In this document: one piece after another, positions 45,204 to 50,671 of the stretch
How the letters are laid out: each line of letters begins with the position of its first letter
How positions within the stretch are numbered: position 1 is the stretch's first letter
Source of the DNA: Sipunculus nudus
Taxonomy: Eukaryota > Annelida > Sipuncula > Golfingiida > Sipunculidae
Length of the DNA stretch: 64,000 bases
Direction: 5' to 3'
Assembly: GCA_026874595.1 (NCBI GenBank)
Contig: CM049316.1
Span: forward strand, 20,051,839-20,115,838
Notes under the pieces: model-generated
Seen by the model: only the letters and a program-made list of their open reading frames with translations
What the model was told of the DNA's origin: nothing
Database searches by the model: none
Translations under genes and position numbers: made by a program

Positions 45204-45832
45204 GTTTTCTTTTATTTGCGGAAGTGGCTGTCAACAGTGACCCTTGACCACTCGATGATTTGCATGAAAATGTAAATATTATGGCTCGGTGACCCCTGAC
45301 CCCGCACAGGATGTAAACAACGATATTTTTCCCACGTGTCACTAACATCGACGGAACGGGGCGTGGCTGTCATGAATACATGTGGAATCTTTTATTTTAA
45401 ACGCTTTGTATAGTGCAACAGAAAATATTTATCTATTCACAGGTATATGCTGGCATGTATTATATCACTTGCACCAGCTAGAACCATAATTATGTCGGGT
45501 GGACTCAGAGGTTTAAAATTTATATTGTAGGATCAATCGTTTTTAAATAAAAAAAATTATTAAAAATAATATTTGTAGCCAATAATAATTTTAACCTTTT
45601 CACCTTTTCTCACTTTATTCGATCTGTAGAATTCAACAAACGCCACATTTTTAAGAACTTTCACCTAGGCCTTTTTATTTTCAATTTGTATAGACTTTAC
45701 ATATATGCACACTTGTAATAAAAATAACAAGGGACCTATGGGTCACATAGCTCAGCAGAATTTGTGAAAATTTCAGCAAATGCAAAATACACTGTTTTGC
45801 TTATCATATATATAAGCATTTTATAAGCTTAA
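45204..45832 (-). promoter_or_regulatory. Probable DENND11 promoter and 5' UTR region
   Basis: Sequence just upstream of the DENND11 start codon is GC- and CpG-richer than the surroundings up to about 45370 and contains a CCACGTGT E-box near 45332. No TATA box was identified at a convincing position. Beyond about 45380 the sequence returns to AT-rich until the transposon end at 45833. Confidence 0.4.
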
Positions 45833-46006
45833 AGTCCAAGTCTCAGCACGGAGGTCGATTAGTGTCATATGCCCGATTTCTATGTATCAAAACACGATGT
45901 TATGTCCATTTAACATTAATCTAGCAATTTAATCAATTAATACGACAATTTGAAACTGGCGCGCCGAATACACTCCGGAAACTGCCGAAAGCCAAGGGGG
46001 AAATCC

Positions 46007-46022
46007 GTGACGTCACGTGTGG
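46007..46022. promoter_or_regulatory. CRE/E-box composite, left copy
   Basis: GTGACGTCACGTGTGG contains a full CRE palindrome (TGACGTCA, 46008-46015) overlapping an E-box (CACGTG). It is the exact reverse complement of 50459-50474. It lies 174 bp from the element's left end and about 120 bp upstream of the ballast-like ATG. Confidence 0.6.
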
Positions 46023-46144
46023 AAGTCGTCTCACACAAGCATCATGGCGGTGATGCAAAGTAAACAATCCGATGAAACTTCCTATGCGTAAAGTGACAAC
46101 CAAGCGTCCACCGACTATGGCTCAAAATAAGTTATTTCGGAAGT

Positions 46145-48190
46145 ATGTCAGAAAGTGATTGTAGTGATGTAGAATTTGAAAATCCTTGTGATATTGAACC
46201 ATTTCGGTCTGAGCCATAGGCTCGACGAGGCGAGATCGAAGGAGGGTGTACAGAGTCTGACAGTGACAGCCGTGTCAACAAAGAATCCGATGAACCGTCT
46301 CGGGCGTCTATGGGAGCAGGCACAAATGACTGGTAATTATTTTATTTTACTCTTACACTGAATACATCTCAAGTTTCTGTAATTGGGACAGGTTGATTAT
46401 TACACTGAAATAAATATCGCTCAACCAAAGCATGTAGCACTGAATGATTTTATGACAGTCACAGGTTTTCCTGGAAAGATGGGTCCCAGCTAGCCCGTTC
46501 CTGTGATTTATAAAAATGCCATGACTTATCAGTCAGTGGTCATATCTTTTTAATTTAAGAACCATATTAAATAAGATTCTGGAGCAAAAACCAATCTTGC
46601 AGTGTATTTATTATCTGAAAATCTTTATTTTGAAAAAATACTGATGTACCTAATATTAAAGTTGTCATTTGACAAGTGACTTGTGAATTCTCAACCTGGA
46701 TGCTATTAAAATTGTAAAATTATTTTTACAATACTAATAATGATTACATTATAAAATTTATAATTTTTATTAAAAAATTAAATTTTCACTTTTATTTTTG
46801 CACATGTTACATGCACATATATATAATAATTAATTATTTAAAAAGAATAATTTTGCAAATACTAGATATATACTAGTAATATTCAGGGGCGGATCCAGGA
46901 TTTAGAAAAAGGGGGCATCTCCAGGATTTAGAAAAAAAGGGGCGGGGGTCCAACCCAGGAGGACAAATGAAAACCCTAAAAAATGGTCCTCAGGTCTGAA
47001 AAAGAGGGGGTCAGGCGGCAATTTTTGGTCTGAAGCCTTTTAAAAAACGTTGTTTCTGATGAAAAAGGGGGGGGGGGGGTCCAGACCCCCTGGATCCGCT
47101 TCTGATATTTACAGATCTTTTATGCATTCCAATAGCCTTGCAAGGGTTATTGTTTTCACTCAATTCTCCGTGTGTGCAGGGGTGTCAATATAGGTAGGGG
47201 TTGGGGGTGGGCAGATATATATCCCCCACTCTTTTTGGCAAGAAGGAAAAGAATGGTCAGTGTAATCACCCCCCCCCCCCCCACCACCACCACCACACAC
47301 ACTTTTCTGAGAATATATTATATTTTACAAATGAAATATATTATTTAATTGAATTGTATACTTTTGTTCAATTTACGATCTTATATATGCCTTTTTTTCT
47401 AACTTTGATTATCCTCCCATGCCTGTCATCCCCCCCTCCAACCTTGCGTATCATATCAACACCCTGCAAGTCACCCCTCCCCCCCATCCTTGAAGCCACT
47501 GTGTGTGTGTGAGGGTGTGTGTGTGTTTGTGCAAGGTATCTTAATAATTGCATTACAGATGTTATTGCAGTTTTACATATAGATCAGTTTAGTGAAAATC
47601 TCAGGTGATTTCATTTTGGTGTAAATTCAACTCTGGGGTTAATGGTTTATGGAGTTTTATAGCGTATTTGTTTACACCTCAGGACGTATGTGACCAGATG
47701 AACCTATATATGGCTATCTTTGGAATGTAGTCATGATGTCACTCCACATACCATTTCCCTCAAAGGTGTCAGTAAATCTTCATACAGCAAGGCAGACCAA
47801 GTTTGTTGTTCATTGTGTTTATAGCCAAGGGCAGCTATATCCCAATGTCCAGGGGTGATTTTCAAAATAATCTCAGTGGAAAAAAAGTTCCCAGGAATAA
47901 CACAGGTTAATTTACATTTCAGAACACTACCTCTGAACATAATCTTCCACTCAGGACATGCATCCCCAATCAGACACTTTTTAATTTTTCTTTAATCATC
48001 CTTTGAGATTGACATTATTTATGATACACAACATGTCTTTTTGTAGGAAATACAGATACACCACATTCAGGCAGCAGGTTTGATGGGACTGGGGGATTCC
48101 TTGGAAGACACATCAGGATACCACTACCAGCATGTGCAGTGAAAAGGATTGAGCAGGCATTTATGTCACATGATGGGACATAACTTTATA
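46145..48190 (+). pseudogene. P2X7 C-terminal 'ballast'-like domain gene, broken
   Basis: Exon 46145-46332 starts MSESDCSDVEFENPCDIEPF, hits TAG at 46217-46219, then continues ARRGEIEGGCTESDSDSRVN and ends GAGTNDW before a GTAATT donor. This is the typical acidic start of invertebrate 'P2X purinoceptor 7-like' proteins. A later exon near 48048 follows a TTTTTGTAG acceptor: KYRYTTFRQQV, a TGA stop, WDWG, a one-base frameshift, then FLGRHIRIPLPACAVKRIEQ and a stop after HDGT. These match the conserved YRYTAYRQ..RW.WG...R...LPSCVV..IR block. The cysteine-rich middle between the exons was not found. No P2X channel domains are present. It is not functional as written. Confidence 0.65.
46884..47104. 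mobile_element. CGGATCC-type MITE nested in the Kolobok-like element
   Basis: It runs from CAGGGGCGGATCCAGG to CCTGGATCCGCTTCTG, inverted ends of the kind common in aquatic invertebrates. It contains a G14 tract. No convincing target duplication was found. Related copies are at 31985 and 54081. Confidence 0.65.
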
Positions 48191-48603
48191 AAGGGTTCAG
48201 ATGCCCTAGATGGAACTGATGGGTGTTCATCCTTGAGCACATTGATGATATCTTAGTTGATAAGATGTAACAATGAACTTCATTATTTCAGTGCACAAGA
48301 TCTTACACCACAATTATTAGAGCATATTAAATCAATTCTTGCAGTCAAATGCACACATATCCTGTATAATAGCAGTAATCAAGTTTTTACAATTACAAGA
48401 TACAGAAATGGAGCCTTCAAGTCCATGTGCACAATGTTGTGTTTGAGCTCAAGTTTACCAGCAGGCATCTGGCGAATATAAGGTTGATTCCGCCACTTCT
48501 TGTGCAGGTTACAGTTGTTGCATATCTCGCTTACCTAGACTGCTGTTCCTTAACAAGAATCACCTGATCGTGTGTACAAGATGTTCTGTTTGGACAGATG
48601 CTA

Positions 48604-48832
48604 AACAACTCCATCAGTTGTGAGTGGAATAAAATAAATTTGGCACTTGATCTTGGTGTATTTCTTCATATAAGCTAATGCTTTTGGGCCATAAAGGTCC
48701 TTAAATAGGGCCACGCAGTCAAAAATATCCTCAAATCCAAACCCTGTTGCCATATTGGATATCACATTGGCCTGAAACTTATCACCCCAAATAACCTGAA
48801 TGGGATCTATATTCAGAAAATTTTTAAAAGAT
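48604..48832 (-). other. Unidentified open stretch inside the Kolobok-like element
   Basis: A 76-codon stop-free minus-strand stretch reads GDKFQANVISNMATGFGFED, then IFDCVALFKDLYGPKALAYM and KKYTKIKCQIYF. The composition looks protein-like, yet I recognise no family. It lies downstream of the THAP exons on the same strand, so it could be a transposase remnant. It could also be chance. Confidence 0.3.
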
Positions 48833-49094
48833 TACTTAGATGAGGCATTAAGAGGTTCTTAAGGTACATGTATGTGCTTGGAAGCTGCATTGCATTTGGA
48901 TTTATAGGAATGATGGATTGACCAAGGACTGATGGACAGACATCAAGGCAATTATTCTTGAGCGGAGCCTGAATAAAGTCAGTCAGCATGAACAGATTGA
49001 ATAAATTTATCTCATTTTCTTTTCTTCATATTTATATACTGATATAAGAAAAATCTATAATAAATATCAAATTTATAAAGATTAGATATTTAAC

Positions 49095-49321
49095 AATAAG
49101 TTCATCGAAGGATGAATCGGTATCATAATCTACATCATCAGAAGGGAAGTATTCATCATCTTTATAAATTGGTGGTGCTTCATCATCATCATCATCATTA
49201 TCATCTGCTTCTTCTTCTTCACTGAAGATGCTGCTATCTTCTGTATTTTGGCCGACCAGAGCTTCACCAATCAGTGAGCACTGGACACCAGCATTTTTTG
49301 TTGATACATTCACTGGGCAAC
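49095..49321 (-). pseudogene. THAP gene exon 2: acidic linker
   Basis: The acceptor is TTTCAAATTCAG. It reads CPVNVSTKNAGVQCSLIGEA, then a long acidic run (SEEEEADDNDDDDDEAPP) and YFPSDDVDYDTDSSFDEL. Linkers of this form follow the THAP domain in invertebrate THAP-transposase-like proteins. The following catalytic exons were not found. A TA microsatellite at 49399-49447 lies in the intron. Confidence 0.5.
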
Positions 49322-49394
49322 CTGAATTTGAAACAATATGCCATTTTCATTGATTTCCAGGACAACTGAAAGATAACTTTTTCATTTGTAAATT

Positions 49395-49449
<55 letters not shown>

Positions 49450-49924
49450 CTAACATAACTTGTCATAAGATCTGTTCACACAATATTCATAGTATTTATG
49501 CTTTATTAAAATAAAATTGTGCATGTGAAATAATATAGGGTAAATAAGGCAAAACGTCACAACTGTAAGCATTAAATGATTATTTAAATCAGAGTGGCCA
49601 CTGTATTAGTGTAATTTGTTAACAAACAATGGGGGTTATGGACACACCCCTTGACGCACCCCTAATTTGCTGGCTGACTGCCAGGCGATTTGGCAGGAGT
49701 GGTGGGTGTTCACAGGTTTCCTGGGAACAAAAGGGCATAATCCCAGCTTTAAAAAAAAATGCAACAACTTTGCACTAGGCCTCGGAGTAGATTAAGCACG
49801 AAAACCGTGTTTACATGGGCGATAATAAGGTATATTCAAATCACATGACAATTGCTCAAAATTTAAAATACATAAATAACTTTCTTTAGCAGTCATTTTA
49901 CTCACAGTTATCAGGTGGAGCCCT

Positions 49925-50346
49925 TTTCTTGTGACCTAGCATGCTTCACGCCTTTTCCCAGCGAGTACCTCGGGCGCTTAATTGGCGGCGTTATATTGTC
50001 CCGGCCCTTGACTGAAGTTGAAGCAAGGCTGGATCCCCTCTCAGTCGGCCTTGCAGCGGGTTCTTGTGGAATTATACTCGGAATTGCCCCTTGTATCAGA
50101 TCTAGTTGTTTTCTTAAATATCCGGCTTACCATTGCTGATAGTTTTTAAAATCGTCAGGAATCCGGAATTGTGCCCCATACATGACACTGGAAAGTTTTG
50201 CAAGGAGTTCCCGACCTACAATCGGCTCGTCTCTGTCTGACAGGTCCCACTTTTTTCCCAAAACGTACGTCTTTCGGCCAATTGTGGACGTTCACACTAT
50301 CTTTGTTGGTATTATTGCATCCACTAAGAACATCTCGCTTCGTCAT
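49925..50346 (-). pseudogene. THAP zinc-finger exon, degenerate
   Basis: The ATG at 50346-50344 begins MTKRDVLSGCNNTNKDSVNV and HNWPKDVRFGKKV, a THAP N-terminus in which the first zinc cysteine is replaced (RDV). A frameshift near 50170 moves into RIPDDFKNYQQW, then TAA, then AGYLRKQLDLIQGAIPSIIP, the usual end of THAP domains, followed by a basic Pro-rich stretch to TGA near 49924. One zinc ligand and the reading frame are lost, so it cannot encode a working domain. The plus-strand ORFs at 49915-50139 and 50198-50551 are antisense shadows. Confidence 0.7.
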
Positions 50347-50458
50347 TTTGATACTGTGTAAGATATACAGTGTATGTCGAGGGGAAAAAACACGGCAGTC
50401 AAGGATGCAGACCGGTAAGACGCGGCATGTTGACCCATGTGATGTTTACCCAGCCGTG

Positions 50459-50474
50459 CCACACGTGACGTCAC
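50459..50474. promoter_or_regulatory. CRE/E-box composite, right copy
   Basis: CCACACGTGACGTCAC is the perfect inverse of 46007-46022. It lies 193 bp from the element's right end and about 113 bp upstream of the THAP ATG. It may be a promoter element or a transposase-binding subterminal repeat. Confidence 0.6.
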
Positions 50475-50671
50475 TGAAGCCACGCCCACCGCGTATCACC
50501 GAGTGCACCTTTACACTCAGCAGCGTGATTACCGTGATGTTTCACGGATAAAATGGAGCATAAATTCGATCTCGTTCAGCTTGAAACGGTGTTGTAAGCA
50601 CTGTATTAACTTATTAAAAGGGTACATGACGCTTTTTTAACTTATAAAAGTGCATGAAACTTGGACTTTAA

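Follow-up and report, generated by a model that had tools for sequence, protein, structure and literature searches.

Does the cytoplasmic ballast domain of P2X7 have a mobile source? This question is raised by an element flanked by TTAA in the genome of Sipunculus nudus, lying within the window, i.e. the whole stretch of 64,000 nucleotides that was analysed (assembly GCA_026874595.1, contig CM049316.1, positions 20,051,839 to 20,115,838 of the forward strand). The original prediction, made from the letters alone, described this element as a transposon carrying both a THAP gene and a gene similar to the P2X7 ballast, and suggested that the ballast-like domain may travel as a second gene of Kolobok-type transposons. 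Our analysis indicates that the element is very probably a Kolobok-superfamily DNA transposon that has suffered internal deletion and is non-autonomous, belonging to the Kol0 type that bears KolX as its second gene, and mobilised in trans. The window family retains both ends and the outer parts of both genes, and no aligned copy has intact coding parts.

Boundaries, target site and copies of the element

The transposon comprises 4,835 bp at window positions 45833-50667, with AGTCCAAGT as left end and ACTTGGACT as right end, and it lies flush between two TTAA copies, its termini falling exactly where they had been predicted (Table 1). Left end and reverse complement of the right end agree at 9 of 9 bases, giving a perfect 9-bp inverted repeat, and at 12 of 13 bases if the comparison is extended. 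Among 28 fetched loci of the family, 24 have both ends aligned, three of these being duplicates of a single insertion, and 23 of the 24 carry TTAA on both sides. The flanks of the sister copy L008, which sits inside a dispersed repeat, were joined with a single TTAA and found uninterrupted at five other genomic places with 100% identity over 304/304 bases, which is direct evidence of insertion at TTAA. Kolobok traits comprise TTAA, RR/YY ends, the motif C/DxxH and KolX (Kojima and Bao 2022, PMC9587614). Two of them, the TTAA target-site duplication and 5'-RR...YY-3' termini (AG..CT), are present in the window element. L008 and L019 are inserted in opposite orientations at apparently the same TTAA of the dispersed repeat (81% over 103 bp on one side, the other side compared by eye), suggesting a preferred insertion site.

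The genome carries dozens of copies of this family. A whole-genome search, which scores the best candidates only and therefore gives lower bounds for copy counts, returned 18 places, counting the window, that align in one piece over the full 4,835 bases, along with many partial ones. There are 47 occurrences of the exact 16-base left end (reversed control 0) and 43 of the exact right end (control 12); these pair into 33 elements, 27 of which are 4.4-4.9 kb in size, leaving 14 of the left and 10 of the right ends unpaired. The intact copies that the original prediction proposed to seek in the same genome were found as far as the shared termini are concerned, but none of the 28 aligned copies has intact genes. 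Divergence from the window copy ranges from 0.4% (L002) to 7.5%, and therefore amplification was probably spread over time, part of it being recent. Three copies at C9:57427918-57540034 (L003, L005 and L006; C denotes contigs, L loci), spaced by 53-54 kb, have flanks common at 97-100% and represent one insertion duplicated together with its surroundings in a repeated segmental duplication. Three paired-end elements are longer than usual, i.e. C5:12522607-12532166 (9.6 kb), C1:94464997-94472116 (7.1 kb) and C6:28107086-28123330 (16.2 kb), and may contain insertions or be fuller versions.

Table 1. Features of the transposon and its target site (window positions)
Feature	Positions	Strand	Remarks
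Left TTAA target-site copy	45829..45832		abuts left end in 27/27 loci with left end aligned (of 28)
Left terminal inverted repeat AGTCCAAGT	45833..45841	+	starts 5'-AG = RR
KolX exon 1 relic (MSESD..IEPF..GTNDW)	46145..46332	+	stop 46217-46219 in window copy; donor GTAATT next
KolX last exon relic (GFLGRHIRIPLPACAVKRIEQAF..YKGF)	48047..48219	+	C-terminal part of P2X7-ballast-like domain; apparent frameshift near start; stop 48181-48183
Transposase fragment upstream of catalytic core (CNNCNLHKKWRNQPYI.MPAG)	48382..48819	-	matches C11:20100220-20100657:-, with stops
Acidic transposase linker (..EEEEADDNDDDDDEAPPIYKDDEYFPSDDVDYD..)	49032..49346	-	matches L069 at 35% over 62 aa (E 2.9e-6, unfiltered for low complexity)
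Post-THAP linker with AIPSI box	49911..50126	-	compare AVPTIF box of THAP proteins
Decayed THAP domain (MTKRDVLSGCNNTNKDSVNVHNWPKD..)	50127..50346	-	frameshifted in window copy
Right terminal inverted repeat ACTTGGACT	50659..50667	-	ends CT = YY
Right TTAA target-site copy	50668..50671		TTAA in 24/25 loci with right end aligned (of 28)

Relics of KolX and of a THAP transposase

The last exon on the plus strand, read with X at its stop, matches the relative L046 on C16 with 66.7% over 39 aa (E 6.6e-13) and L049/L047 with 46% over 50 aa (E 3.5e-10), these E-values and that of the linker match to L069 referring to a search set of 41 fetched loci. L046, L047 and L049 are all matches to PF20478 (P2RX7_C) above the curated cut-off, and for each of four references 0/2000 shuffles reach the score. 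This confirms the predicted membership of the plus-strand relic in the P2X7-C-terminal-like family. Homology of the second gene to KolX and the P2X7 ballast, which is a Kol0 trait, is shown by the comparison with the PF20478 loci. The acceptor TTTGTAGGAAA of the last exon is present in 26/28 copies and the stop at 48181 in 27/28 (TAA in 25, TGA in 2). The exon 1 relic has its ATG in 27/28 aligned copies and CTGGTAATT in 26/28, the codon at its stop position being TAG in 4, TTG in 21 and a gap in 3 of the 28; its likeness to exon 1 of L046 (DPYQIEPFRLSP) is mainly by eye, tblastn giving an E-value of 0.091 only. In the window, L001-L028 and L059-L068, the best match to the cysteine-rich exon of KolX did not go below E 0.76, and CxCGxC strings were absent. 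KolX with conserved cysteines, a further Kol0 trait, was thus not found in the window family, the cysteine exon being present in L046, L047, L049 and L053-L057.

On the minus strand, the transposase fragment in its L025 version matches C16:14326294-14326506 (read as L069) with E 1.9e-13 genome-wide and 50% over 70 aa. In the same frame past one stop, L069 reads DGRSDTPGHCAKYG, with DGRSDTPGH within it, which we take to be the stretch around the first catalytic D in Kolobok transposases. The acidic linker of the original prediction matches the same locus (Table 1). When aligned to the true THAP domain of L074, the THAP-like frame of copy L017 scores 71, compared to a shuffle mean of 23.4 and with 0/2000 shuffles scoring as high; for the first 30 aa of the post-THAP linker, 4/2000 shuffles score as high against L074 and 35/2000 against L075. 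L074 and L075, next to ballast genes in elements on C3 and C15, are recognised by Pfam as THAP domains (1.3e-15 and 2.9e-16). THAP, the AVPTIF box and H2CH are described as Kolobok features (PMC6004289). Three of the four C2CH ligand positions are changed in 28/28 aligned copies, the codons being GAT in 26 and GGT in 2, TAT in 28, and CAA in 27 and CCA in 1, the corresponding residues of L074 being C, C and H; the fourth zinc ligand is TGC in 27 aligned copies. A DDD/E transposase with C/DxxH, the trait of an autonomous Kolobok, was not found in the window and 38 further copy loci, and the single DGRxD string in L002 falls outside the element.

Relatives with converging THAP and ballast genes

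A genome profile search with PF20478 gave 30 matches (79/79 candidates scored), and one with the THAP family PF05485 gave at least 124 (150 of 213 candidates scored); the window copy is among neither. A THAP match lies no more than 10 kb from ten of the 30 ballast matches, in 10/10 cases on the opposite strand and converging, compared to 0.05 expected under a uniform model. The original prediction named ballast-like genes never being linked to THAP genes as an outcome speaking against it, and these ten linked pairs show the opposite. They form about five families, with L053-L057 being one young family (5/10 pairs; 92.5-99.7% alike) and a family on C2/C3 contributing 2/10. The ballast match on C16, which has no THAP match within 10 kb, has the transposase fragment of L069 at a distance of 6.5 kb, converging.

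The L053-L057 family carries CRCVCGIC on the KolX strand in 5/5 members and, on the opposite strand, TDRH and DVWHVAKG in L055-L057, L053 having TDQH and L054 being cut there; L055 also carries LESFH farther along, separated by stops of the kind that introns would produce. DVWH agrees with C/DxxH, the motif that PMC9587614 reports for Kolobok. For this genome, the ten converging pairs and the Kolobok-like catalytic motifs in one family support the proposed role of the ballast-like domain as second gene of Kolobok-type transposons. At their right ends, two insertions of this family (C15 and C8) share a stretch of 340 bases with 100% identity that closes with CT-TTAA and one further base, past which they differ. 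The right-end 16-mer is found as an exact match 321 bp beyond three of the five THAP matches (C8, C11, C15) and with one mismatch 2.7 kb beyond the fourth (C12), none being seen near the fifth (C10); the end pattern is noisy, with 53 and 46 occurrences compared to 29 and 30 for the control.

None of the 30 PF20478 matches comes closer than 100 kb to one of the 47 exact left ends of the window family, the nearest being 102 kb away; the AGTCCAAG ends mark this family and not ballast genes generally, and the linkage to such ends that the original prediction raised as a check was not seen for any of these matches. The 13-base pattern TTAAAGTCCAAGT occurs too often to serve as a test of ends (93 and 96 compared to 73 and 95 for the control), and none within 10 kb of a ballast match was seen by eye among the first 100 of 189 places.

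Several ballast genes without a THAP match within 10 kb are multi-copy or tandem genes with open frames of about 180-200 aa and the full cysteine motif (L029-L032, L035, L036). L029, L030 and L031 (C9:13292678, C10:28202660, C10:28214765) have open frames of 183 aa with full WCHCGNC; L030 and L031 lie 12 kb apart and are identical (100% over 3,375 bp), and L029 is 99% identical on another contig. L035 and L036 (C5:66232258 and 66243420) form an inverted gene pair, 99.9% over 2,357 bp and 11 kb apart. L039, L040, L043, L044 and L045 (C16, C5, C3) constitute a dispersed family, likewise lacking a THAP match within 10 kb, whose ballast exons include WCVCKNCRQMPTE and GAYRQFVLWQHGRLG and whose pieces are 71-95% alike, L039 and L040 being 95% alike over 3.2 kb; this family may be another carrier type or result from gene duplication. 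We consider it possible, albeit rather unlikely, that the multi-copy and tandem genes named first (L029-L032, L035, L036) are KolX genes that left the transposon and were retained by the host; if true, repeated domestication of KolX, beyond P2X7 and nanor, would be general in this lineage.

Nature of the element and origin of the ballast domain

Several observations weigh against the assignment to a Kol0-type Kolobok. The THAP-like frame of L017 does not score above chance against the THAP domain of L075 (1087/2000 shuffles as high), no THAP match by Pfam was obtained for the frames of the window and of copies L018 and L021, and neither P2RX7_C nor THAP was matched at E up to 1 for window pieces or up to 10 for pieces of L018 and L021, weak unrelated matches only being returned. 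For the regions of the first and second catalytic D, nothing better than E 0.44 was found in the window, L001-L028 and L059-L068, and because the DDE core was not found, the family's own transposase lacks the part by which it could be placed in a Kolobok tree. The strings DGR.D, TDRH and LESFH are presumably Kolobok catalytic regions. Of the ballast matches, 20/30 have no THAP match within 10 kb; no matching left end of the L053-L057 family was seen near its THAP matches; in the parts read of C16, the closest relative, neither AGTCC adjoining TTAA nor the ends were found; and no autonomous element with the ends of the window family was found. The L021 THAP-like frame gave no match against PDB by phmmer, and ten stop-to-stop pieces matched no Pfam family above its cut-off. 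The predicted minus-strand THAP exon is confirmed in part, through the alignment of the L017 frame to L074; it lacks a Pfam match, is at chance level against L075 and has lost three of four ligands.

The missing Pfam matches and the comparison with L075 could mean that the resemblances to THAP and ballast arose by chance in AT-rich DNA that has decayed. This we regard as extremely improbable: 0/2000 shuffles reach the scores of the THAP frame against L074 and of the KolX last exon against four references, the transposase fragment has its genome-wide match on C16, and the converging order is repeated in ten relatives, and the chance reading is refuted by the shuffles and the fragment match. It is likewise very improbable that another TTAA-targeting group, piggyBac or Sola3, acquired a KolX-like gene. 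Sola3 targets TTAA as well, and only the C-terminal part and exon 1 of KolX are kept in the window family. TTAA targets are also common to piggyBac, in which families with a KolX C-terminal-like protein exist (PMC9587614). However, AG..CT ends (RR/YY) are a Kolobok mark versus piggyBac according to the same source, the window family contains THAP and AIPSI relics, and its transposase fragment is akin to L069 with DGRSDTPGHCAKYG past one stop. Capture of a P2X7-like host gene was rejected, since about five families show the converging order.

The low divergence between the window copy and L002 shows that some copies are young, as expected of an active autonomous two-gene transposon with an intact ballast gene. 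We hold this reading of the window element to be very improbable, and it is refuted for the 28 aligned copies, given that the loci searched yielded neither a catalytic motif nor a CxCGxC exon, that the last-exon stop is present in 27/28 and that zinc ligands are lost in 28/28. The intact two-gene carrier implied by the original prediction was likewise not found, both genes being broken and the longest stop-to-stop frame inside the element being 149 aa in 28 loci. As lesions are common to the copies, their sequences suggest that the family founder may already have been dead.

The favoured non-autonomous Kol0-type transposon fits a model according to which the ancestor would have carried two converging genes, KolX on the plus strand and a THAP transposase on the minus strand, KolX being a small putative zinc protein homologous to the P2X7 cytoplasmic ballast. 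Internal loss would have removed the transposase core and the cysteine-rich KolX exon, and the remaining coding parts would have decayed. A related autonomous Kolobok would supply the transposase, perhaps also KolX, in trans, and this transposase would recognise the AGTCCAAGT ends and cut and paste the dead copies into TTAA. An accessory role of KolX in transposition, by binding DNA or protein, is a guess.

KolX has been described as the second protein of the Kol0 lineage of Kolobok, similar to residues 476-595 of human P2X7, with P2X7 originating by fusion with KolX (Kojima and Bao 2022, PMC9587614). The inference of the original prediction is essentially correct; the ballast as a second Kolobok gene and source of the P2X7 domain is thus already published, in print since 2022 and not the under-described system it was proposed to be, and new here is one defective family. 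With the Kol0 lineage (Kolobok-1_XT type; DDD/E transposase and KolX; PMC9587614) it has in common TTAA, RR/YY ends, transposase relics and a ballast-like second gene; unlike that lineage, it no longer has a catalytic core or the cysteine-rich KolX exon and is not self-mobile. T2-MITE and other non-autonomous Xenopus Kolobok families (PMC6004289) are likewise non-autonomous with TTAA targets and RR-type ends, whereas the window family measures about 4.8 kb with relics of both genes still recognisable. Stand-alone ballast domains have been described, molluscs included (PMC7016195), the word stem transpos being absent from the text searched. The last-exon relic shares homology with the P2X7 C-terminal ballast and nanor-like proteins (PMC7016195; PF20478) over the C-terminal part of their domain. 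No P2X channel part was seen, nor did the window family yield the zinc-binding cysteine exon.

Our data provide further support, from one genome, for the published origin of the P2X7 ballast in KolX of Kolobok transposons, this support consisting of about five families in which THAP and ballast genes converge; catalytic motifs are visible in one of them. The window copy illustrates what ordinarily becomes of such elements, i.e. deletion, decay and, as we infer, mobilisation in trans.

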